DNA of 21,250 nt from a virus: positions 1-21,250 of IMG/VR virus record IMGVR_UViG_3300031746_000203. The stretch is one strand, 5' to 3'. Shown here piece after piece: positions 2 through 17,951 of this stretch (position 1 is its first letter; every line of letters starts with the position of its first letter). The notes below the pieces were generated by a model. It ran no database searches, had not been told where the DNA came from, and saw only the letters and a program-made list of their open reading frames with translations. The position numbers and the translations under genes were made by a program.

Positions 2-1528
2 GTATCTTATATTCTTGAGAGCGATGCTGCTGGTGGAAGTTCAGTTGATGATTTCACATTCCCGTTGCCAGTAGGAGTCATTCCAGATACGGATAGTAAT
101 ATTAATATCTTTATTACAGATCCGGCTACTGGAATTGAAAGCCAAGTAATTCCTAACAAAACAGCTTTTTATGATCCTACCATTACTGCCAGCACTTCAA
201 GTTTTATATTCGGCGCTGGATACACATATTCATACACTGTTGTTTTGGAAGACTCAGTGCAGAAAGAAGGTCACGATGGTACCTTAACTGCACTAACAGC
301 GACTACAGCAACGTTCAGTAGCACATCAATAGCGTTCGGACTTGATGATGAAAGTTTAACAAGGAGTTTAAGAATATTTGATTCTACTGGTGGATTAAAT
401 AATGGTTCATTTACAATAACTGATGTAACCGATGGTGTATTAAGCATCTCACGAGGCGTTGGAGTATTCTCTACTGAAAGCTCGGTTCGATTTGAGATAG
501 TAGATTCTGCGTCACAAACCGCTGAAATACTATTTACGGATGACATTCCAATTCTAGCTGGTGCTCAAGTTAGGGCTACAATAGTAGATATTAAGGATGC
601 TGACTTCTTTGATGTTGGTTGGGTTACGGCATTCGAAGAATTGGAAAAAATTGAGGTTGACATTGTAGTCCCTCTTCCGTCTCAAACAATTAGTCAAATT
701 TTGCAGAACGCACGTATTCATTGCGAAACGATGAGCAATATCAAGAATCGTCGTGAGCGTGTATTGTTCACTGGGGCCATCAACGGATTGCTACCTGAGA
801 ATGTAATTGGAACTGAGCCAGCTGCGGTTGAAGATATTGGAGTTCTTGAAGGTATTCAAGGAGATGACACTTCAGAAATATTAGCTGGTGATACTGAGGA
901 TCTAGCTGATTACGGTGTGCCAAATTCATTCGGAGATACATTCCGCGTTGTATATTTTTACCCGGATCAAATCGTAGTCCAGATTGGAGCTGACAGAACA
1001 ATTATTGATGGATTCTTTATTGCTGCTGCCGCTGCTGGATATCTATCTGGTGTGCCAAACGTAGCAATTCCATTGACGAATAAAGTATTGAGCGGCTTTA
1101 CAATTCTAAGAAACAAGGTTTTTAGGCCAATCATTCTTGAGAATTTGACTGTTGCGGGTATTTGTGTATTGCAACCAACCATAGGTGGCGGACGAGTTAT
1201 TCATGGTCGCACCACAACTCAGAGTGGTTTCGTTGAGGAGCAAGAAGTAAGCATCGTATTTATTCGTGACAGAATTGCAAAGACAATGCGCGCGGCTTTC
1301 CAGGCTTTCATTGGACAAGCTGAGTCATCCACATTGCAAGGTTCATTGAGTTCAAGAGCGGTCGGCATTCTTAATGGATTAATTAGTCAGGGATTAATAA
1401 CACAATTTGCCGATTTAAAAATTGCCCGTGATCAAGTTGATCCAACACAATGGAATATTTCCGTAGCGGTTCAACCAGTGTATCCAGTTAACTACATTTA
1501 CATTGAAGTTTCTATTGGATTATTATAA
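2..1528 (+). CDS. Contractile tail sheath protein (5' truncated by window edge)
   Basis: The frame is open from the first complete codon at position 2, so the true start lies upstream; the TTG at 65 is only an internal leucine codon. 508 residues are visible. The sheath forms the contractile outer cylinder of the tail, which shortens to drive the tube into the host. Seen: a beta-rich variable region in the first ~190 residues, then a middle segment with VDIVVPLPSQTI, NARIHCETMS and NRRERV, and a C-terminal domain with GVPNVAIPLTNKVLSG, GGGRVIHGRTTT, EEQEVSIVFIRDRIAKTM and a closing beta-strand arm (NYIYIEVSIGLL). This order (a polar NRRERV stretch, a G-rich R-x-x-x-G-R-T-T-T loop, then the V-x-x-I-R-D-R-I helix start) is characteristic of phage tail sheaths. 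The tail tube gene follows 14 bases later, the usual order. Arginine codons are mostly CGN (12 of the 20 counted from position 65 on), unlike the tape measure gene, which fits a highly expressed structural protein. Identification is confident; phage subgroup is not. Confidence 0.92.
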   Translation, partial: VSYILESDAAGGSSVDDFTFPLPVGVIPDTDSNINIFITDPATGIESQVIPNKTAFYDPTITASTSSFIFGAGYTYSYTVVLEDSVQKEGHDGTLTALTATTATFSSTSIAFGLDDESLTRSLRIFDSTGGLNNGSFTITDVTDGVLSISRGVGVFSTESSVRFEIVDSASQTAEILFTDDIPILAGAQVRATIVDIKDADFFDVGWVTAFEELEKIEVDIVVPLPSQTISQILQNARIHCETMSNIKNRRERVLFTGAINGLLPENVIGTEPAAVEDIGVLEGIQGDDTSEILAGDTEDLADYGVPNSFGDTFRVVYFYPDQIVVQIGADRTIIDGFFIAAAAAGYLSGVPNVAIPLTNKVLSGFTILRNKVFRPIILENLTVAGICVLQPTIGGGRVIHGRTTTQSGFVEEQEVSIVFIRDRIAKTMRAAFQAFIGQAESSTLQGSLSSRAVGILNGLISQGLITQFADLKIARDQVDPTQWNISVAVQPVYPVNYIYIEVSIGLL

Positions 1529-1542
1529 CTTAAAGGAAACAA

Positions 1543-2160
1543 ATGCCACTTAGGGACCAATCTACGCCTTTATATCAGAACAGAACCGGAACACATTTAT
1601 CTACCAATATTATACTTTTGGTAAATAATCGCGCTATTGCTGCCGTAAAGACATTAGCAATTACAGAATCTCGCGGCATATCAATGATAAATGAAATAGG
1701 CTCAGATGGCCATATCGATAGTGCGCCTAACAAATCAACTGATGTTTCTGGCAGCTGCTCACGTACACGATTTAATAGAACGCGCATTGCCGAAGCTTTT
1801 GACAGAGGTTTCGTGCATGTTGCGGCACAACGTGTTCCATTTGAAATTGTAATTCAAGATAATTTCCAAGGCAGCGATGATGACAGCAAAATTATCACTA
1901 CTATACGAAATGTTTGGATTGAAAGAATAGAGGTTACTTATAGCGCAGAAGATTTTGTTATTGTAGAAAACATGAATTGGCAAGCAGAATCAATTGATAG
2001 CCATCTTGGTAATCAGCAGAACGTAGTTGGAATTAGTCATGCTGGAAATAGTGCGCCAAATATAATTAATCCATTTGAAGCTTCGGCCGATTTTGGCACT
2101 TATCGTGGCGCTCTTGATGGCGCGGGTCTAATTAACGCTGTTGTAAACGGCACTCTTTAA
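1543..2160 (+). CDS. Tail tube protein
   Basis: A 205-residue protein, the right size for a myovirus tail tube (gp19-like), which stacks as rings to form the inner channel that carries DNA. The ATG at 1543 is preceded by a good ribosome site, AAAGGAA at 1532-1538. The gene begins 14 bases after the sheath stop, the standard sheath-tube order. Visible features are a beta-rich core with IILLVNNRAIAAVKTLAITESR near the N-terminus, FVHVAAQRVPFEIVIQD in the middle, and IRNVWIERIEVTYSAEDFVIVENMNWQAESI toward the C-terminus. Alternating hydrophobic strands of this kind fit the tube beta-sandwich. The C-terminal ~45 residues are Gly/Ala/Asn rich. No signal peptide or membrane segment is seen. The name rests on size, position and strand pattern rather than on a signature motif. 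Like the sheath it favours CGN arginine codons (8 of 13). Confidence 0.85.
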   Translation: MPLRDQSTPLYQNRTGTHLSTNIILLVNNRAIAAVKTLAITESRGISMINEIGSDGHIDSAPNKSTDVSGSCSRTRFNRTRIAEAFDRGFVHVAAQRVPFEIVIQDNFQGSDDDSKIITTIRNVWIERIEVTYSAEDFVIVENMNWQAESIDSHLGNQQNVVGISHAGNSAPNIINPFEASADFGTYRGALDGAGLINAVVNGTL

Positions 2161-2264: not shown

Positions 2265-2939
2265 ATGGAAGAGCAAAAAGGCCGAAGTTCTCGTGGAAGT
2301 ATTGAGAGTCCGTTAGGCCGAGTTAATATATCATCGTCCGGCCAGAAACGACCAATGATTAGTGTAGACGATCCAACAGACCCTGTATCTCCGGAAGGAC
2401 AGTATGTACAGGAATCATCAGTGGCAGATAGACGCAGAGCTTATGCCCAAGCCCAAGCGCGTGAGGAACGTGTTGCGGCAGATGCTAGAGTTTTAGCAGA
2501 GGAAGCTCATCGCTCCAGGGTTGATGAAAGAATGGAATCTGGAGCAAAGAAAAGAACAGAAATATTATTAGGACTTGGAAGAGGGGTAAAAGATGTTGAT
2601 GTTGAAGGCATAATATTTTCTCTTAGAACATTGAAAAATTATGAATGGAAAGATGCGATAAAAGCGGTAGCATTATCAGAGTTGGCTATAGAGCAAGCTT
2701 ATGAAATGAGGGCTCAAACATTATCAAGATCTATTTTTGCTATTGATTCTCAGTCTATTGAAATGGTATTAGGATCCTCTGAATTAGATGATAAAATTGA
2801 TTTTGTACAAAATTTAGATGAGGCTGTAGTTTCGTATTTATATGACTCATATAATAAACTTGTTGCTGAAAACAAGTCCAAATTTAATATTAATTCACCT
2901 GAGGGAATTCAGGAGGTGGTTGAAGAAATAAAAAAATAA
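2265..2939 (+). CDS. Tail assembly chaperone, short (0-frame) product, gpG-like
   Basis: 224 residues, ATG at 2265 behind AGGAGAG (2254-2260). It lies between the tail tube and the tape measure, the fixed place of the tail assembly chaperone in long-tailed phages. The chaperone binds the tape measure and guides tube polymerisation but is usually absent from the virion. The N-terminal ~50 residues are polar and Ser/Gly/Pro rich. Residues ~55-105 form a long, highly charged Ala/Arg/Glu stretch likely to be a helix or coiled coil. Residues ~105-224 form a compact, mostly helical domain (GRGVKDVDVEGIIFSLRTLKNYEW, split by a hydrophobic IIFSL). The last codons before the stop are ATA AAA AAA TAA, which is a -1 slippery site (see the entries at 2930 and 2936). 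The assignment comes from position plus frameshift architecture; no catalytic motif is expected. A baseplate hub-assembly role (gp26-like) is a less likely alternative. Confidence 0.8.
   Translation: MEEQKGRSSRGSIESPLGRVNISSSGQKRPMISVDDPTDPVSPEGQYVQESSVADRRRAYAQAQAREERVAADARVLAEEAHRSRVDERMESGAKKRTEILLGLGRGVKDVDVEGIIFSLRTLKNYEWKDAIKAVALSELAIEQAYEMRAQTLSRSIFAIDSQSIEMVLGSSELDDKIDFVQNLDEAVVSYLYDSYNKLVAENKSKFNINSPEGIQEVVEEIKK
2930..2936 (+). promoter_or_regulatory. -1 programmed frameshift slippery heptamer A AAA AAA
   Basis: In the 0 frame the codons are ATA AAA AAA TAA, so the last A of ATA plus two AAA codons form the X XXY YYZ heptamer with perfect re-pairing after a one-base slip. The 0-frame stop TAA (2937-2939) follows directly, which tends to slow ribosomes on the site. 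After the slip, reading continues ATA ACA AGG and stays open for 123 codons. The location at the very end of the first chaperone frame is exactly where such signals occur in tail chaperone genes. Confidence 0.85.
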
Positions 2940-3307
2940 CAAGGGAGCCAGATCACAAGTTTTTATCGCATTTAGTTAATACGTTCGGAAGGCTCCCTGA
3001 TGATTTATTTTTTGAAGAAATGGATCCTATAATTCGACTTTGGTTGTATGAAAGTTGGATTGCAGATTTAGAAGATAAACACAAGTTTATGAAAGATTAT
3101 ACAATTTTGGGCGGTTCATTTCACAATCCAGATGCAGCTAAGCAAATGATGCAAGCAGAAAATCCAAGTATTATTTCAACGGACGAAGAATATGAAAAGT
3201 CAACACAAATGGTATTAGATGAAGATAAGTTAGACAAAGAGATGCAGTCAGGGCACAGAAGACGTAGAAGACAAATTAGAAAAGTGATAAACAAAGATAG
3301 CAAATAG
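2936..3307 (+). CDS. Tail assembly chaperone, -1 frame extension (gpGT-like fusion product)
   Basis: This frame is open from the slippery heptamer to TAG 3305-3307 and is probably made only as a fusion to the preceding chaperone: 224 + 123 = 347 residues. The first in-frame ATG is at 3020 (95 aa), but the 28 codons before it (beginning ITREPDHKF, then VNTFGRLPDDLFFEE) read as good protein leading smoothly into MDPIIRLWLYESW. Between 2936 and 3020 there is no ATG, GTG or TTG in frame, and the ATG at 3020 has no spaced ribosome site, so independent initiation looks unlikely. The extension is helical and acidic in the middle, ending in a strongly basic tail (GHRRRRRQIRK). In lambda the matching T part of gpGT recruits the tube protein while G coats the tape measure; the same split is inferred here. 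The tape measure follows 6 bases later. Confidence 0.8.
   Translation: MTREPDHKFLSHLVNTFGRLPDDLFFEEMDPIIRLWLYESWIADLEDKHKFMKDYTILGGSFHNPDAAKQMMQAENPSIISTDEEYEKSTQMVLDEDKLDKEMQSGHRRRRRQIRKVINKDSK
2942..2998 (+). promoter_or_regulatory. Frameshift-stimulating RNA stem
   Basis: AGGGAGCC (2942-2949) and GGCTCCCT (2991-2998) are a perfect 8-base inverted repeat with 6 G-C pairs in otherwise AT-rich DNA. The 5' arm starts 5 bases after the slippery heptamer, the spacing typical of -1 frameshift stimulators. The 41-base loop is long, so a second stem or a pseudoknot within or beyond it is possible; I see only weak candidates. It is not a terminator: no T-run follows and the open frame runs straight through it. 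Confidence 0.75.
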
Positions 3308-3315
3308 GTATAAAT
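3304..3315 (+). repeat. Junction motif ATAGGTATAAAT, copy 1
   Basis: The same 12 bases occur at 3304-3315 (chaperone stop/tape measure start) and at 17948-17959 (gp25-like stop/baseplate J start). In both copies the TAG stop supplies the AGG of the next gene's ribosome site, and ATG lies within or just after the motif. It may be a shared translation-coupling signal; TATAAAT also resembles a -10 or phage late promoter element, but at this spacing the transcript would have almost no leader. Confidence 0.4.
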
Positions 3316-5467
3316 GGCTGATATAAAAGATTTTCAAGTTGAAGAATTAAAAGCCATGGCAGAAGGGCTTAGTGATACTCCAGCTCTTTTAAAAGCAATA
3401 TCGGAAGGACATGGCCATGTAACTGAAGCAATGGCTAAAACAATAGAGATATGGCATAAAATGAGCACGGCTGCAACCAGCACTCTTGGACAATATTCAG
3501 CATTTGGTAATGTAGCCTCTAATTTGTTTCAAAAAATTTCAAATGGTAGCAAAGATGCTATTAAAGCAGTAGAAGATGCATTAGGCATTAGCTCACAAAA
3601 AGTAAAAGAAATGTTCAGAGAAAGTGGGGAAGATATAGCTGGTTTTACAATTATGGCTTTGCAACAAAGTGAGAAATTTAGAGCGGCTTTTCCTATTCCA
3701 GAATCATTAAAAAGTCTTAGTCAAGTATCTGGTGACGTATTAGGAAGTGTATCTAGTGATTTTGAAAAAGCTACACAAGCAGTTAATTTACTTCCAAAAG
3801 CATTGCGTGGTGACGTTAATGAAGCGCTTAAGGGTTTTCAAGCAGTTGCTGGACAATTTGAAGTATCAAGAAATGCAGAAAATGCATTAATAACATTACA
3901 AGCACAAGCTGGTAATTTAGGAGACATGTTTACCAGTTTTGGTAGTGATTTGAGTGGTATTGATTTAATGATGGATAATTGGGGAAAACGTATGGAATCA
4001 ACTGGTACAGCGGTTGGTATGAGTTCGAATGAAGTGCAAAAATTTGGATTACAGCTTCAAAAAATCCCTGGCATTATGACTGAAACTATTAAAAATATTG
4101 ATGGAGCTGGTAATTCAACGGATGTTTTAACTGCGGCTTTAAAAATAAATAGAGGCAGTGTTCGTGATTTAGACACTGTGTTTGGAGTCATGAATAATCA
4201 AATGAGATTATTTAATACTAGTGGAGAGGATTCATTAAAAATAATTTCTAGAATGCAAGCGTCTGTATCAGGCCTTGGAATTCCACTTGATATAATGAGA
4301 GGGTTTATAAATAACACTAGTTCCGCTTTTAAATTTTTTGGTGATAATTCTCAAGCTGCATTAACTATTATGGAAAGAATGGGACCGGCATTAAGTAAAT
4401 CTGGAGTTGGACCAGAAGGTATTGCTGAAATAGTTGGTGGTATGGTCAAAGGAATTGCAGAGTTAGATGTTGCTCAAGAAGCTTTTATTTCTAGTCAATC
4501 TGGCGGCCCTGGAGGACTTCAGGGAGGATATCAAATTGAATTATTAAAACAACAAGGCAAATCAGATCAAGTTTTTGATATGGTGCAGGGTGCTTTGAAG
4601 AAACAATTTGGTGGTGGTCCAATTATTGGTCTTGAGGAAGGAAGCAAAAGTTCTGGTGCCGCAGCACAATTAACAAAAGAAGTGGCGTTTTTAAGGCAAG
4701 GCCCATTTGGGCAACTAGCCAAAAGCAATGCGGAAGCTTATAAATTATTAGATTCTATGAAAACCGGTTTTGGAAAAGAAGCAATAACAACACCGGAAGA
4801 AACAACTCAAAAAGCAATGAAAGCCGGCGAAGCTGTTCAAGATAAGCAAACTCCAATAATCACAGGTATAGCAAATTGGGTCGAACGTATTGGTATAATA
4901 ATGACAAACGCTTCTGCAAAAACAGCGAGAGAATATACTACAATTAGTGGGCCAAAGATTATTAATCAATTAATGACAGAAGGAAAGAAAACTGCTGCTT
5001 TTGATACAACAAGAGTAGTTGAGGCTGAAGCTATTAGAAAACGTGGAGAGGCTGGCGTTGGTGGAACAACTACGGCTGGTCATAAACCCTCTGATGCTTT
5101 AAAAACAGAATTTCTAAATGTAGCAGAGGTTGCAAAAAGAGCCAAAGAAATTGTTTCGCCAACACAATATCAAATTCCTATGGAACTAGATAGAGGTCCT
5201 AAAAATTTAATAGAAGGAAATTCGGCTACCGCTCCGCCACAGTCTGGAGTAAAAAATTTATTAAATTTGAAACAAGCGGCTGGCACAACAGTTGAAGCTG
5301 ACAAAAATAAAGCTATTAAATCTACTGCTCAAGATTATAATATTAATATTAATTTAACTGATTTGTTAGCTGGTAATAAACATATACACAATGTAGCTAC
5401 AGCTGTTGTTAAAAAAGGACATGTGAATATTGAAAGTAGAGCAAGTAGCCTCCCTGCACTCTCTTAA
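3314..5467 (+). CDS. Tail tape measure protein
   Basis: 717 residues, ATG at 3314, 6 bases after the chaperone stop, with AGGT at 3306-3309 as a close, weak ribosome site. It is placed directly behind the frameshifted chaperone, the diagnostic position for the tape measure, whose helical length sets tail length and which leaves through the tube at infection. The sequence is Ala/Lys/Glu/Gly rich and mostly helical (for example LKAISEGHGHVTEAMAKTIE and EKATQAVNLLPKALRGDVNE). A Gly/Gln-rich patch lies near residues 395-440. The C-terminus (NININLTDLLAG) turns beta-like. At about 0.15 nm per residue, 717 residues predict a tail near 105-110 nm. I see no clear membrane-spanning segment and no peptidase or lysozyme motif, whereas many tape measures carry one or the other. 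Arginine codons are mostly AGA/AGG (15 of 20), unlike sheath and tube. No ATPase-type motif argues against another role. Confidence 0.85.
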   Translation: MADIKDFQVEELKAMAEGLSDTPALLKAISEGHGHVTEAMAKTIEIWHKMSTAATSTLGQYSAFGNVASNLFQKISNGSKDAIKAVEDALGISSQKVKEMFRESGEDIAGFTIMALQQSEKFRAAFPIPESLKSLSQVSGDVLGSVSSDFEKATQAVNLLPKALRGDVNEALKGFQAVAGQFEVSRNAENALITLQAQAGNLGDMFTSFGSDLSGIDLMMDNWGKRMESTGTAVGMSSNEVQKFGLQLQKIPGIMTETIKNIDGAGNSTDVLTAALKINRGSVRDLDTVFGVMNNQMRLFNTSGEDSLKIISRMQASVSGLGIPLDIMRGFINNTSSAFKFFGDNSQAALTIMERMGPALSKSGVGPEGIAEIVGGMVKGIAELDVAQEAFISSQSGGPGGLQGGYQIELLKQQGKSDQVFDMVQGALKKQFGGGPIIGLEEGSKSSGAAAQLTKEVAFLRQGPFGQLAKSNAEAYKLLDSMKTGFGKEAITTPEETTQKAMKAGEAVQDKQTPIITGIANWVERIGIIMTNASAKTAREYTTISGPKIINQLMTEGKKTAAFDTTRVVEAEAIRKRGEAGVGGTTTAGHKPSDALKTEFLNVAEVAKRAKEIVSPTQYQIPMELDRGPKNLIEGNSATAPPQSGVKNLLNLKQAAGTTVEADKNKAIKSTAQDYNININLTDLLAGNKHIHNVATAVVKKGHVNIESRASSLPALS

Positions 5468-6480: not shown

Positions 6481-9400
6481 ATGAGTTTTTTATCAAATAT
6501 AGGAAAAGTTGGCGGAGAATTTCTAGCCTCTTTAAATGAACAAACGCTTTCATCAGAAAATACTATTAGATCATTAGATACGATAGATCCGGATGATCCA
6601 GATCGTGTGATTAATTTTGGAGCATTGGGTGATTTTGCAAAGCGTGTTGATCAATCTGCGCAACGTTCGTATGTTGAATCCGGTTATATTAGAAACGTTA
6701 AGCCTAATTTTTATGAGATTCTTCTTCAAGAACCAAATGTAACAATAGCTATTAAAAAAAGAATATTTTCTTCTTTGATTGATAATTATAGATTTGATTT
6801 AATGGATACTGGAGATAAGTTATTTTTCAGGGCGTCTAAAAAATTATTTCAAAATAAATGCAATGCTATTTCAACTTATGAAAAATTAAGTAAAATAGAG
6901 AGGGTTGTGAAAAATAAGGGCGCATTAGACGAATATATGGTTCCTGCAATTTTAGCAGGAGTAGATTCGCTAGATGCTTTGGGTGTGGATATCATAGATC
7001 CTAAAACCAGGGCTACATTAGACACGATTAGAAAGCTTACATTGCTTTCAGAACCAAATGAATTTACATCGTGGATAGTTGATAGAACTACGGCTTTTGC
7101 AAGTGACACTGGTGAAGGAACTGGCGTATTTGAATTAACCACTGTTGCGAGTGTAAATACAACAACTAGTGTGAATTTCAAAGGTGGAAGCGCAAGTTTG
7201 GAAATTGAAGATCCTTATAATTTGATGACTATTACTAATGAAGATATTAATAAAGCAATTAGTGATGCTGCAAATTTCTTTAAACAAAATAGTTTTTTCA
7301 CAGTTACTGAATCAGAATTGGATAAAGTTACGAATGAGTTTAAGCAACAACTTAATCAATTGAGAGCGGCAAGGAATGTATCTGCTATTACATTCTTAGT
7401 AAATTCGTCAACTCTTTTATTTAAGCGTGTTCGCGCGATTATTGATGAAGAGGGTAAAGATATCATTTTTAATCATGATGCCGGGCTTCTTGGAATTGGG
7501 GCGTCGGTAGAATTAGATGCAAGCGTTTATGAAGGTCCTAATGGATTAAGCAGAACAAGGGCAAATATTGCTGTTGCTGAACGTTTAGAAAGCAGCAAAA
7601 GTGAAGAAGAATTATTAAAAGATATAATTAGAAACACATTTCAATTACTTAGTTTGCGTGATTCCACTAAATCTGCAATTAAAAATTTCAATGATTTGGG
7701 TACAGAATTAGGAATAGATATACATTATGCTCGTGAAAAAATGCGTTTGCATTATGCCAACAAAACTATTATTCAGCCAATGGATATAGTTTATGTATTT
7801 ATGCAATCAAAAACAATAGTTGACAATAAAGTTACTGGGTTATTTGAGCCAAGTTTTACTGGTGGAGATATTATAAAAGGAATTAGCAGTGTAATTAATA
7901 AAATGCAAACTTCTTTTAATGACATGAAAAGTTTTTTTGGGGGCGGCGCAAAAGATTCGGCTGTGGAAGTAGAGAAAAACGCAATTGTTGGTTCTGATTT
8001 TCCAATGTGGCTTTGGATATTATTGCGAAATGATTTTACAAAACAAGCAGCAGGAGTAAGTACTTTTGTTGGTCCAGTAAAAGAAACGACAAGTAAGTAT
8101 GATGCGTCTAGTGGAAAGTATACAGTTAGCGTATCAATCGCTGACAATTCTCATTATTTTGAGCTTAGCCAAATTAATTTAAACCCATCACCTGACGTAT
8201 TTAATAGTGTGATTTATGATCCGCTTACTCCGTTTAAAACAGATTTTGATGCGTCATCTGGCATTATGATAGGTAAAGAGTCTCAGTTATTACCTGAAAA
8301 TCAAAGAATGCTAAATTCACCAAACGTGAAATTCAAAAACGGCAGATTTAGAGGCATTCAAGTTTCTCCGGCTTTATATATGGCTAAAGACGGAGAGTTT
8401 TCCGTAGCTAATTCTCCATTTGATTTTAGAGAAATTAAAAATGATCCTGATGGATTCGTATATCGTTGGAAGACTGGCATTGGCTCTCAAGTCGTTTTTG
8501 GAGAGCCACATCCGACCTCATCATTAGAAGAAGATTCTTCACCAAAATTAACGAAAGATCCATTTGCTGGCCAAGATGTAATGAACGTATTATCATTATT
8601 AGTAACATCACAGCCTTATAATTATAATACATTTATGAAAGCAGCTGTTGAGTCAGGTTCTATTAACAGAGATGATTTAACTAATGGCCAAGGATCAAAA
8701 TCATTTTATCAAGGATTGTTGTCAGAGCTAACTGAGCAAAACTCAGTATGGGGAAATTTCATTCCATTTAAAAAACTAGTTGTTTCTGAGGGAGCATATG
8801 CCTTTTTGGCTAGTGGGCAATTTGATATTTCACAATCTAATCAAAAGATTAACGAATTAATAGAGCAACGAACAAGGCTTTTTGACACATTGGTGCAAAC
8901 GCCAGAGGGACAAGTATTCGCAAAAAACCCACAACTTTTTAATATAAATGCGCAAGGACAATCGATACCATCATCATTGGCAAATAAATCTACTGGTGGA
9001 GCTGATTTATCTAGCAATAACGCTCAACAAGTACGAATGAAAATTGCCGAATTGGATCCTCAAATAGCAGAGCAACAGAATGCATTAAGGCAAAAAATAG
9101 CAAATTCCAACCTTGGTGATGCTGGAGGGATTCGTATTTTTGGAAACGACGTATCTTTTGACCCAACTGTTTCGGGCGATAGCACCAACGTTACTCAAGA
9201 ACAATTACAACAGCAACGTATTGATTTTAGAAAAAAATTACATACATTAACTCAACGAAGATTTTGGAAAGTCAAATCTAATGATGATCAAAATCTTTTC
9301 ATAGTTGATGATCAATATGATAAAAATTATGATATACAGTCATTCGAAAAAGGGTTAAATAATTTACAGCAATTATTTAAGAATGAATACTCGTCTATTG

Positions 9401-11517
9401 CCAGTAGCATTGATAAGGTAAAAAGCATATTAGGATTAGAAGTTTTTTCAGATTCGCAGGGACATATACAAGCCAGGCCTCCAGCTTACAATAAAGTTCC
9501 AAGTTCTGTATTTGAAAGAATGTTACGTGATAGATCTAAAACAGGAATAAGAGTATTTCCTAAATTATTAGAATCATTATTTGTTGATCAAGTTGAGGGG
9601 TTAAAACAACAAATAGAAATAACTGAAGATAATATAAGATTGCAGGCAGCTGCGTTAGGCAAAACTACTGATCTTAGCATAGAATCTTTATTAAGTAAGC
9701 CTACAAATATGGATACTGTTGTTGCTTCTAATTTCGGGTTTGTCACAAATGAAAATGGAAAACTTGGTATCAAAGATATTCGAAATTTAATATCTCAAGT
9801 AAATCCAGAAAATTTTGAATTAAAGCAAAAGTCTCTTAGTTCTTTTAATTCGCAAATTACAGGTCAGTTAAATGCGACATCTTTCTTTGATACTGATTCT
9901 AGAATTGCTATATTAAATAATAATCAAATATTTGAAAGTATATCAAACAGTAATGCCAGTATAAGAGTCCAGCAAATAACAAATAGATTACAAGAGGCCA
10001 CTCAAGTAACTCCGCCAAATCCAATTTTAAATGTAAATCCAGTTTCTGGCCCATTACAATCTGATGTATTACAAATTATTAATAATTTGTCTTTATTGGT
10101 TAGTTCGCGTCAAAATTTATTAAAACAAATGTCTGCTTCAATTAAAAATTTAGAAGATGATATTGTTATAGAATATGATACCGGCCTTCCTAGAAAACAA
10201 TTATTTCCAAATCTTGATAGCAAAAGAACTATACCTGCAATCATAGAGCATATGATTGAATATGAAGACAATGATGATCTTGGCCCAGGCTCTGGTGGCA
10301 GGTATATTATTAAAGAAAATCAAATTACAAATATGAGCATTACTGAAAGTCCGCCAGCATTTACTGCTATAGAAGTTAGTGGATTGTTTGGAGAAGGATA
10401 TACTCCACCACCAGCCAGCTTGGCCGTAAGTGATTTTGGAGGAGGAGGAAATGCTGTAACCGCTGCATTTGCTGTTGATTATGACATGTGGCGTATGTAT
10501 GGATTTAGAAAAGCGCCGACGCAAATGGCTCCATTTTTATCAGACGCACAAGCTCAATGTGCCCCATTCGCTGTTTATTTATTAAACTTAGCTAGAAAAG
10601 GTATTTTTCATGCCGACTTAACTATTGTTGGCAATGAATATATGCAACCAGGAGAGGTGGTTTATATTGAAAGTAAAGATTTGTTATTTTATGTAGAGTC
10701 AGTAACTCATTCTTTTAATTATAGTGGCTTTACAACAAGTATGAAATTAACATATGGTCATAATCCTGGAGAATATATTCCAACAATTTTAGATATTATA
10801 GGAAAGGGATTATATTCAAAAAGCAATCAGGCTAATCTGATAAAACATAATCGTCATGGAAACGCTAGTGGTGACATTTCACTTACTGTAGTAGCTATTG
10901 ACAGCAGTGTAATGCAATCTATAACAGACAATGACCCTTTAACAGCTTTATTAAGAGGCAGATTTGCTTCTCGTAATATTAAAAGTTTGGCCGATATGGT
11001 TGTTGCTTTGGGAAATATAACTGCTCCAAATTCTAATAAAAATCCAACAATAGAGCTTCGTTCTTATAGAAATAACGATTTGGGATTTGCCGAAAGTCCT
11101 ATATTAGAGAAAATAAAAGGCGCTATAATAAATTGGTTAAAAACACCGACTATTCGTTCAAGTCAAGATATTAATAATTTATTACCAGATAACAATTTAC
11201 CTGATGAAATAAGACAAAGCCTTAATATTGAGTCCAGAATTATTGATCCATATCCAAAAAATACAGAATCAGCTTCATCCAAAGCGTGGGGAGCTGTAAG
11301 ATATTTAGTTTCAAACGACGTTGATTTTAGTCAAGGAGCGAAAATTAATAATAAAGATGTATCTCTGGAAGATGAAGTATTATTCCAAAATATAATTGAT
11401 ATTTGGATTACATTTAAACAAACACCAAAAACAAATTCTACAAACAAAAACCAGACTGCAATTACAGATCAAGCTGCACAACAGTCAGTTGATATTGTAA
11501 AAAATAATTTCAAGTAA
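6481..11517 (+). CDS. Giant baseplate hub protein
   Basis: 1678 residues, ATG at 6481 behind a modest AAGAAG (6473-6478). Residues ~1388-1445 contain MQPGEVVYIES, LLFYVESVTHSFNYSG, TTSMKLTYGHNPGEYIPT and LDIIGKGLY. This 'P-G-x-x-V-Y-I ... F-Y-V-E-S-V-x-H ... L-x-Y-G-H-x-P' block is typical of the end of baseplate hub proteins (gp27 / gp44 / XkdQ-type), which form the ring joining tube to spike. Typical hubs are about 350-400 residues, so over 1000 extra residues precede the motif and ~230 follow. The N-terminal 450 residues are helix rich (YVESGYIRNVKPN, ETKSEEELLKD-like charged stretches); residues ~850-880 and ~1034-1065 look coiled-coil (for example KIAELDPQIAEQQNALRQK). No lysozyme, peptidase or LysM motif was recognised. 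The next gene, encoding the central spike, starts 4 bases after the stop, as expected for hub and spike. It may be a fusion of hub with a separate internal virion protein. Confidence 0.78.
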   Translation: MSFLSNIGKVGGEFLASLNEQTLSSENTIRSLDTIDPDDPDRVINFGALGDFAKRVDQSAQRSYVESGYIRNVKPNFYEILLQEPNVTIAIKKRIFSSLIDNYRFDLMDTGDKLFFRASKKLFQNKCNAISTYEKLSKIERVVKNKGALDEYMVPAILAGVDSLDALGVDIIDPKTRATLDTIRKLTLLSEPNEFTSWIVDRTTAFASDTGEGTGVFELTTVASVNTTTSVNFKGGSASLEIEDPYNLMTITNEDINKAISDAANFFKQNSFFTVTESELDKVTNEFKQQLNQLRAARNVSAITFLVNSSTLLFKRVRAIIDEEGKDIIFNHDAGLLGIGASVELDASVYEGPNGLSRTRANIAVAERLESSKSEEELLKDIIRNTFQLLSLRDSTKSAIKNFNDLGTELGIDIHYAREKMRLHYANKTIIQPMDIVYVFMQSKTIVDNKVTGLFEPSFTGGDIIKGISSVINKMQTSFNDMKSFFGGGAKDSAVEVEKNAIVGSDFPMWLWILLRNDFTKQAAGVSTFVGPVKETTSKYDASSGKYTVSVSIADNSHYFELSQINLNPSPDVFNSVIYDPLTPFKTDFDASSGIMIGKESQLLPENQRMLNSPNVKFKNGRFRGIQVSPALYMAKDGEFSVANSPFDFREIKNDPDGFVYRWKTGIGSQVVFGEPHPTSSLEEDSSPKLTKDPFAGQDVMNVLSLLVTSQPYNYNTFMKAAVESGSINRDDLTNGQGSKSFYQGLLSELTEQNSVWGNFIPFKKLVVSEGAYAFLASGQFDISQSNQKINELIEQRTRLFDTLVQTPEGQVFAKNPQLFNINAQGQSIPSSLANKSTGGADLSSNNAQQVRMKIAELDPQIAEQQNALRQKIANSNLGDAGGIRIFGNDVSFDPTVSGDSTNVTQEQLQQQRIDFRKKLHTLTQRRFWKVKSNDDQNLFIVDDQYDKNYDIQSFEKGLNNLQQLFKNEYSSIASSIDKVKSILGLEVFSDSQGHIQARPPAYNKVPSSVFERMLRDRSKTGIRVFPKLLESLFVDQVEGLKQQIEITEDNIRLQAAALGKTTDLSIESLLSKPTNMDTVVASNFGFVTNENGKLGIKDIRNLISQVNPENFELKQKSLSSFNSQITGQLNATSFFDTDSRIAILNNNQIFESISNSNASIRVQQITNRLQEATQVTPPNPILNVNPVSGPLQSDVLQIINNLSLLVSSRQNLLKQMSASIKNLEDDIVIEYDTGLPRKQLFPNLDSKRTIPAIIEHMIEYEDNDDLGPGSGGRYIIKENQITNMSITESPPAFTAIEVSGLFGEGYTPPPASLAVSDFGGGGNAVTAAFAVDYDMWRMYGFRKAPTQMAPFLSDAQAQCAPFAVYLLNLARKGIFHADLTIVGNEYMQPGEVVYIESKDLLFYVESVTHSFNYSGFTTSMKLTYGHNPGEYIPTILDIIGKGLYSKSNQANLIKHNRHGNASGDISLTVVAIDSSVMQSITDNDPLTALLRGRFASRNIKSLADMVVALGNITAPNSNKNPTIELRSYRNNDLGFAESPILEKIKGAIINWLKTPTIRSSQDINNLLPDNNLPDEIRQSLNIESRIIDPYPKNTESASSKAWGAVRYLVSNDVDFSQGAKINNKDVSLEDEVLFQNIIDIWITFKQTPKTNSTNKNQTAITDQAAQQSVDIVKNNFK

Positions 11518-15829: not shown

Positions 15830-17518
15830 ATGGTTAAATTAAAAACTGTTATTGAAAGCAATATTGATGATATCAATGGTATTAATGCCGATATTAACAA
15901 TCTTGCTAGTAAGTATTTAACACCGATTGATGCTGTTCGTAGCAGGTCTAAACCAGCATCAATTGCTGCTACTGAAGTTACTCGCAATGATGGTTCAAAG
16001 AAAAAATATAATTTTGCAGGAATTGATATAAACACAAATAGAGCAATAGAAAGCAGAATAAGTGCTTTTTTAAGAACGTTAGGATTTCCAATTATGGATG
16101 AAACTGGAAATTTTTTCAATTCTGGATTTGACCCAGACAATGAAAGCACAATGCAAATATATATAAAAAGCAATATAATTTTGTCACCACTACAAACCGC
16201 ATTGATGTTACGAGAAGCTATCGTTGAGGAACGGCGTTTAGTATTTGCTAACCAAGACTTTCCTTCTTCTGTTTATGCATTAGCGTTAAGATTTATTAAA
16301 CCTTTTATGGTAATGGATCTCAACCTTGGTCCTTTAGATATAGATCCTCAAAATTTCGAAATATCTGATAGAAAAACAGCATTTAATAACCCTATTGCTA
16401 ATAAGTTTTCTGAAGGCAATCATATTTTGAAACCATTTATAGTTGATCCGATGATTAATGATACGATATATCCTGCCGAATATATGATTGCTGTTCCATT
16501 TTTACCAACTATGGAAGACGCAAGTTTATCAAAAGATAAATTATTAAAACGACCGGCTATTGAATTTATTTGTCGTATTAGATTGGCAGATACTACTATT
16601 GATTCCGAATTTTTAAAAGAAGCACAACATATATTATCTAACAAAAATCCGTCAACTAAATCAGAGTCAGCAACAACCATTCGTGATACCGTATCAGCAT
16701 TAGTAGGTCAAAATGATGTTAATGACAATGTTGTTTTACAAACCATTCAGGGATTTACTACTACACAAACCGTAATGTTAACAACATTAGTAAAAACTAT
16801 AAAAGCTGTTGTTGAAAAACTTGATGAAGATATTGTAGAATTTAATAAGATTTATTCTGAATATGATTTGGAACCGGTACCAAGTATAGAAGGTCCTGAA
16901 TTTTTAGGAACAGGAAAAACAGCTGCGTATATAAGAACATTTTCAAGTCAAGAAAATTCAGTTCAGAAAAATTCTTTATTAAATACAAAAATAGCTAGAT
17001 TAAAATTACAACAACAATTACAATTATATAAAAATAAAGTTACTGCGCAAACAATTGGCGGAGGCAATACAGACATAAGCTCATTATTTGCCGTGCCTGT
17101 AATAGCATCGGCTGAAAGAGATTATAATACCGAAATACAAAGATTAGAAAATGACAGAGATTCTCATTCTAGTAAAATGTTAGAGATTTTAGCTGATATA
17201 GAAAAAATTACAGGGGAAATTAGTGGCCTTGGTTTAATTGATGTTTTGGCTATATACACTGCATTATGGGCCATAGATATAAAGACTTTGATAGGTTTTT
17301 TGGATGATTCAGCGTTTAATCGTTTATATGATTTTAATACAGATCTTAGAACCACCGATGTAGAAAGTAGAAATAACGGTGAAAAATTAAACGGCATATT
17401 GGTTTTGCAAAAATTTCAAGATAAATTGTTTAATATCCTATCATTTGCTGATAAGATTATGACACAAAAAAGGAATTCTCCTACACAAGCAGATGGTGGC
17501 GACGGAACTCAGGGATAA
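15830..17518 (+). CDS. Uncharacterised baseplate-locus structural protein
   Basis: 562 residues, ATG at 15830, 8 bases after the preceding stop; the only ribosome-site-like bases (AAGAGA, 15812-15817) are rather far upstream, so coupling is likely. I do not recognise the family. Residues 1-30 look helical (IDDINGINADINNLASKYL). Residues ~60-230 look globular with mixed strands and helices (for example FIKPFMVMDLNLGPLDIDPQ). Residues ~300-430 and ~450-560 contain long heptad-like helices (for example TLVKTIKAVVEKLDEDIVEF and NTKIARLKLQQQLQLYKNKV), so coiled coils are likely. The C-terminus is polar and Gly/Asp rich (TQADGGDGTQG). No enzyme motif, signal peptide or membrane helix is convincing. 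Its position immediately before the gp25-like wedge gene suggests a baseplate wedge or hub-wedge linking protein; this is inference from context only. Confidence 0.55.
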   Translation: MVKLKTVIESNIDDINGINADINNLASKYLTPIDAVRSRSKPASIAATEVTRNDGSKKKYNFAGIDINTNRAIESRISAFLRTLGFPIMDETGNFFNSGFDPDNESTMQIYIKSNIILSPLQTALMLREAIVEERRLVFANQDFPSSVYALALRFIKPFMVMDLNLGPLDIDPQNFEISDRKTAFNNPIANKFSEGNHILKPFIVDPMINDTIYPAEYMIAVPFLPTMEDASLSKDKLLKRPAIEFICRIRLADTTIDSEFLKEAQHILSNKNPSTKSESATTIRDTVSALVGQNDVNDNVVLQTIQGFTTTQTVMLTTLVKTIKAVVEKLDEDIVEFNKIYSEYDLEPVPSIEGPEFLGTGKTAAYIRTFSSQENSVQKNSLLNTKIARLKLQQQLQLYKNKVTAQTIGGGNTDISSLFAVPVIASAERDYNTEIQRLENDRDSHSSKMLEILADIEKITGEISGLGLIDVLAIYTALWAIDIKTLIGFLDDSAFNRLYDFNTDLRTTDVESRNNGEKLNGILVLQKFQDKLFNILSFADKIMTQKRNSPTQADGGDGTQG

Positions 17519-17519
17519 C

Positions 17520-17951
17520 ATGTCATTTGATTTAAGAATATCACAAGGCGATTTAGCAATAGGCTCCGATGCAGATTTTGATCGCGTGGAAGATACCGAT
17601 AAATTAATTCAAGATGTTCTTAAAATTTTATTAACACCACTTGGCGGCAATCCTTTTCATACTTGGTACGGATCATTAATTTCTAACACGTTGGTTGGTA
17701 ATGTATTTGAAGAGGAATTTTTAATAAAAATAGCTAGTAGTCAAATAAATAGCGCGTTAGAAACAATGCAAAATCTTCAAAAGGCCCAAACAGCAGTTCA
17801 AAAAGTTACTCCAAATGAATTGTTGGCAGCAATCAGAAGCGTTGATGTAAATAGAAACCCGGTAGATCCAACAATGTTTTCTGTTTTTGTGGCAGTATTA
17901 ACAAAAGGCTTATCAACTGTAAGAACTTCATTTTCGGTAAATAATTTATAG
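17520..17951 (+). CDS. Baseplate wedge protein, gp25-like
   Basis: 143 residues from the ATG at 17520. I prefer this start to the upstream ATG at 17493 (152 aa): AGGGA (17511-17515) stands 4 bases before it, it lies one base after the previous stop (TAA 17516-17518), and the resulting N-terminus MSFDLRISQGDLAIG matches the usual gp25 beginning. The upstream option would overlap the previous gene by 26 bases. The family motif is clear: GDLAI near residue 10, then IQDVLKILLTPLGGNPFHTWYGS (core LLTPLGGNPFHTWYG), corresponding to the T4 gp25 / P2 gpW-type wedge fold that also exists in type VI secretion TssE. It joins gp6-like arms to the hub and helps nucleate the sheath. The baseplate J gene follows 10 bases later, the conserved gp25-gp6 pairing. 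C-terminal part (ELLAAIRSVDVNRNPVDPT) resembles the family's beta end. Confidence 0.88.
   Translation: MSFDLRISQGDLAIGSDADFDRVEDTDKLIQDVLKILLTPLGGNPFHTWYGSLISNTLVGNVFEEEFLIKIASSQINSALETMQNLQKAQTAVQKVTPNELLAAIRSVDVNRNPVDPTMFSVFVAVLTKGLSTVRTSFSVNNL

Follow-up and report, generated by a model that had tools for sequence, protein, structure and literature searches.

A putative -1 ribosomal frameshift cassette in the tail assembly chaperone gene of an unstudied phage group, with an apparent change to +1 in a sister clade

Introduction

The tail assembly chaperone gene of phage lambda carries the slip site G_GGA_AAG. Located beside the tape measure gene, it gives a 0-frame product (gpG) and a -1 extension near the gene end (gpGT) (PMC5009743). 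Shifts of -1 and +1 are both known from the tail genes of different phages, HSTV-2 and Listeria phage PSA (site CCC_UGA) being examples of +1 (PMC5009743). Among cellular genes, the cassette of Escherichia coli dnaX combines an upstream Shine-Dalgarno (SD) sequence, an A-rich heptamer (A_AAA_AAG) and a downstream stem, and the shift shortens the protein. Of the known systems, the closest is that of Bacillus phage G (NC_023719), in which the genes follow the order sheath, tube, G/GT and tape measure and the annotation gives gp182 as a tail assembly chaperone joined from two pieces.

Here we describe a candidate cassette in the IMG/VR virus record IMGVR_UViG_3300031746_000203 (21,250 bases, hereafter the window). 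As in lambda, the chaperone gene neighbors the tape measure gene and a 0-frame product is followed by a -1 extension near the gene end, but the site is A_AAA_AAA TAA accompanied by an SD and a stem, and the tail is contractile. The three elements of dnaX are all found, although here the shift would lengthen the protein. Phage G has the same gene order, a matching chaperone fold and a tube protein 30% identical to that of the window; at the homologous place it carries an in-phase A_AAA_AAC TAG instead of A_AAA_AAA, with no strong stem at +5 to +9. Frameshifting of tail chaperones is already well known and the window adds a case. Its interest is mainly comparative and lies in a conserved site, a stem whose partners vary and what appears to be a change from -1 to +1 in a sister clade.

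Gene neighborhood and identity of the chaperone

The genes around the chaperone form a contractile-tail module. A tail sheath gene (65-1528, phrog_279) is followed on the plus strand by a tail tube or virion structural protein (1543..2160, phrog_985, with the 30% identity to phage G gp180), the G/T pair, and a tape measure gene (3314..5467; Pfam TMP_3 with an E value of 4e-7, below the curated cutoff), after which come tube-initiator-like, hub-like and baseplate-like genes. The pair between tube and tape measure consists of two overlapping open reading frames (ORFs) on the plus strand, the G-like gene (2265..2939, 224 amino acids [aa]) in the 0 frame and the T-like gene (2936..3307) in the -1 frame. 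The latter has 123 codons plus a stop and would yield a GT fusion of 347 aa.

Context and fold support the assignment of G as a tail assembly chaperone. The AlphaFold (AF2) model of G, with a mean pLDDT of 84, matched the HK97 tail assembly chaperone 2ob9 with a probability of 1.00 but an E value of 0.025, as well as phage G gp181 (E value of 3e-6) and gp182 (E value of 6e-6), while T gave a weak fold match to gp182. Members of both alignments matched PHROG tail assembly chaperone families (phrog_25000/4988 in the case of the T relatives), and the start of T in the trans-frame is conserved as I-x-x-E-P-D-H-K-F. Searches of Pfam with G and T provided no credible match, and there were none in Rfam, in tblastn with G, in the phage genomes searched for DNA similarity to the window or in the genome contigs searched with the T alignment.

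The slip site and its conservation

In the reading frame of ORF 2265-2939, positions 2928-2939 are ATA AAA AAA TAA, which places the heptamer A_AAA_AAA (2930..2936) in the X_XXY_YYZ phase as the last sense codons, with the 0-frame stop TAA (2937..2939) right behind it and a 5-nt spacer (2937..2941) before the stem described below; all the elements of the cassette are on the plus strand. From 2936, the -1 frame remains open for 123 codons up to a stop at 3305-3307, and its first ATG, GTG or TTG appears at 3020, 28 codons in. An earlier note on this DNA, made from the sequence alone, had described the phase, stop, spacer, open frame and two product lengths (224 and 347 residues), and our reading agrees in every respect. 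However, the string formed by the heptamer and TAA occurred on average 1.09 times per window in shuffled sequences. As about one chance match is expected, the A7 run plus stop proves nothing by itself and the evidence has to come from context and comparison.

To that end, relatives were retrieved by scanning IMG/VR with tube, sheath and T, and phage G was also included among the rows. By sheath and tube, we found 79 distinct loci, several of them on contigs of 200 to 480 kb, belonging to an unstudied phage group whose members are mostly large. At 67 of these loci the junction was readable in both ORFs, T being in the -1 frame in 55 (window included) and in the +1 frame in the other 12. All 55 -1 rows have NTA AAA AA(A/C) T. 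The heptamer is A_AAA_AAA in 53 and A_AAA_AAC in the remaining two (phage G and L061), so that the alignment of homologs proposed in the earlier note indeed shows a conserved site. The expected use of the A-ending codon is ca. 56% for that Leu/Ile/Val residue and ca. 69% (AAA) for Lys, and the chance of these codons being kept would be ca. 10^-15 for NTA and ca. 10^-19 for the two Lys codons, values that assume independent rows whereas the rows are related. Only I or L occurs at the trans-frame residues, followed in most rows by a motif of the E-P-E/D-H-R-F type, and T-frame codons 3 to 15 diverge mostly at third positions (0.26/0.18/0.49).

A stop directly follows the heptamer (TAA or TAG) in 50 of the 55 rows, the others having TCA or TCG and then TAA. 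The earlier note had considered the site an instructive variant because of this stop and the 41-base loop of its stem; the stop turns out to be the norm of the family, and the stem represents one of three architectures.

Upstream and downstream stimulators

An internal SD missed in the earlier note, AGGAGG (2911..2916), precedes the heptamer by 13 nt. At the same distance, 30 of the 55 -1 rows have GGAGG, and SD strength exceeds on average that of synonymous recodings (z of -1.43, standard error [SE] of 0.13). It is not universal, since L028 and L116 have no strong SD and that of L035 is weak.

Downstream, the 5' arm AGGGAGCC (2942..2949) is the exact complement of the 3' arm GGCTCCCT (2991..2998), forming the perfect 8-bp stem with a 41-base loop that the earlier note had recognized. 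This stem appears in the minimum free energy structure, ranks first in helix strength among the 1,409 tiles of its strand, and has an energy that none of 200 synonymous recodings reached; for the whole region, the folding z was -2.15. Compared with synonymous recodings, the -1 rows show better folding over the 75 nt downstream (mean z of -1.58, SE of 0.14); for control stretches located 120 and 180 nt farther along, the values were 0.10 and -0.14. These figures support a downstream stem that is selected beyond coding needs.

In homologs, the stem is conserved in the position of the 5' arm, which in the best helix of each -1 relative starts at +5 to +9 (after 5 nt in the window), but not in that of its partner, found in one of three places. 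The 3' arm is located at ca. +22 to 37 in L028, L030, L043 and others, at +55 to 70 in the window and L061, and at +83 to 102 in the majority, where TGAACCGG pairs with CCGGTTCA across a loop of ca. 66 to 79 nt. In this majority stem, 89% of the cells are paired, three pairs show two-sided change (five cells altered on both sides) and the covariation score exceeds all 500 shuffles. We take this as supportive rather than as proof, because kinship inflates the counts and, in one slid control (-2), two-sided cells are more numerous. The helix is weak in L035 and in phage G, where only a weak 5-bp helix was detected at +19 to 23; together with the missing SDs, this indicates that neither stimulator is strictly conserved throughout the relatives. 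A pseudoknot search gave only weak candidates of 5 to 7 bp between loop and 3' sequences, such as 2950-2955 with 3001-3006. Directly behind the main stem, a second, A/T-rich hairpin (11 bp, loop of 3) is predicted at 3002-3026.

An SD 6 to 17 nt upstream has been reported as stimulatory, and stems are usually located 5 to 8 nt downstream (PMC4066793). With its SD at 13 nt and its stem at 5 nt, both within the reported ranges, the cassette belongs to the dnaX type.

Proposed mechanism and alternative explanations

Gene identity, the heptamer in 55 of 55 rows and a stem selected beyond coding bear out the earlier reading of a tail chaperone -1 frameshift, which the comparison with relatives strongly supports at the sequence level. 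Very probably, the window carries a cassette for programmed -1 ribosomal frameshifting that is of the lambda G/GT kind and has stimulators similar to those of dnaX. The majority of ribosomes would complete the 224-aa chaperone G and terminate at the TAA at 2937. A minority, slowed by the stem (2942-2949/2991-2998) and aided by the pairing of AGGAGG (2911-2916) with 16S rRNA, would have both tRNA-Lys slip back one base on A_AAA_AAA and continue reading ATA ACA AGG GAG into the 347-aa GT fusion. As in lambda (PMC5009743), this fusion could help the tube protein to assemble around the tape measure. By analogy, the G part would bind the tape measure and the T part the tube protein. The slippage itself, its rate and the role of each stimulator are what we infer from these features. 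Counting against this reading, A_AAA_AAA is less slippery than A_AAA_AAG in E. coli (PMC5009743). If correct, frameshift control of the tail chaperone has been kept over large distances, reaching a lineage without a close cultured relative in the collections searched.

T could instead be an independent gene starting at the ATG at 3020, with the A run as a by-product of an AT-rich C terminus. That ATG exists, preceded only by a weak purine stretch (GAAGAA), but it is missing in most of the clade of the window (I or L in L109, L116, L030, L029 and L035). Moreover, the invariant P, F and P of T are located upstream of 3020, as is the first confident T helix of the AF2 model (T residues 4 to 16), and the heptamer is unbroken in all 55 -1 rows. 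Initiation at 3020 is, for the unconserved ATG and for the conserved residues and helix upstream of it, very unlikely. The fusion might also derive from an edited mRNA if the RNA polymerase, and not the ribosome, slipped on the seven A's. Runs of A7 are possible sites of transcriptional slippage, which has been named as a possible reason for their rarity in genes (PMC4066793). Yet the run never exceeds seven in the 55 rows and is A6C in two of them, its codon phase is fixed when polymerase slippage needs no fixed phase, and the elements under selection (stem and SD) act on the ribosome, all of which makes this origin highly improbable.

Another possibility accepts the frameshift and sees the stem as an accident of coding without a role, in which the codons for Glu-Pro happen to pair with those for Trp-Phe or Asp-Pro-Val. 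In its favor, the 5' arm encodes the conserved Glu-Pro and the 3' partner differs among relatives. Recodings that preserve the protein fold clearly less well, however, and we consider such an accident unlikely. The preferred reading remains a -1 ribosomal frameshift with a stem that probably takes part in it.

A sister clade with T in the +1 frame

The 12 rows with T in the +1 frame lack the heptamer and represent ca. 10 distinct lineages (L032/L042, L031/L075, L034, L112, L119, L107, L033, L040, L039 and L036/L038). At the homologous codon, all have AAA_AGT or AAA_AGC (AAA_AGY) and then GGT or AGC (L032, 8797-8805; L119, 3985-4002; L036, 8801-8818; L034, 8869-8886; and others), and reading in +1 restores the same T protein, with the start V/A-V/A-x-x-P-E-H-Q-F. 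In L042 and L031, a stop in the +1 frame lies shortly before the site, so that the shift can only take place in the codons around AAA_AGT. A broken heptamer with both frames intact, which the earlier note had regarded as evidence against its reading, does therefore occur, but with the T frame moved to +1, indicating a change of mechanism rather than the absence of frameshifting.

In a quick tree of sheath plus tube, built without bootstrap, these rows form one clade (SH-aLRT of 98) that is sister to the clade of the window. All outgroups, including phage G, are -1, and a single change suffices on this tree. It seems probable that the shift at the homologous codon reversed direction once, from -1 at A_AAA_AAA to +1 at AAA_AGY (G/A)G, with T, the junction and the SD kept, while the -1 stem keeps its 5' arm and swaps 3' partners.

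The +1 shift may take place if tRNA-Lys leaves its AAA codon and pairs again with the AAA that overlaps it, a route that the sequences make more likely than independent initiation. Four identical bases are listed as a +1 motif by PRFect (PMC10885494). A start of T at the GTG that overlaps AAA_AGTG is available in most rows, but the triplet is GTA in L042 and GCG in L119, and the SD lies ca. 20 nt before the GTG; initiation is the less likely option since the GTG is absent in two rows and the SD is too distant for ordinary initiation. We also discarded a -2 shift, in which tRNA-Lys would have to re-pair with unconserved triplets (CCA, GAA, ACA, etc.), whereas +1 re-pairs AAA with AAA.

AAA_AGY would be a candidate +1 site that does not belong to the stop-codon type (CUU_UGA, CCC_UGA). 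The apparent +1 shift resembles those of HSTV-2 and PSA, but these are different sites in different lineages, while here the change affects one homologous place in one clade. A limited literature search provided no report of a direction change at one homologous site within a clade. If true, sister lineages with -1 and +1 shifts and the same protein would imply that what selection maintains is the fusion product rather than the direction of slippage.

Other features of the tail module

Some additional observations concern the surrounding genes. The window contains a very large ORF (6481-11517, 1,678 aa) that matches a virion protein only weakly and could be a baseplate hub carrying additional domains. 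ORFs 15830-17518 and 17493-17951 share 26 bases (17493-17518) in what looks like an ordinary overlap, the downstream ORF having its own ATG. Among the relatives, an extra ORF is found between tube and G, with ca. 300 to 360 codons in L029 and L065 and 100 codons in L040. Finally, the sheath match covers ca. 1,460 bases in the clade of the window (65-1528 in the window itself) versus ca. 1,740 to 1,820 in most other -1 relatives (L043-L103), which suggests an inserted domain in the latter.
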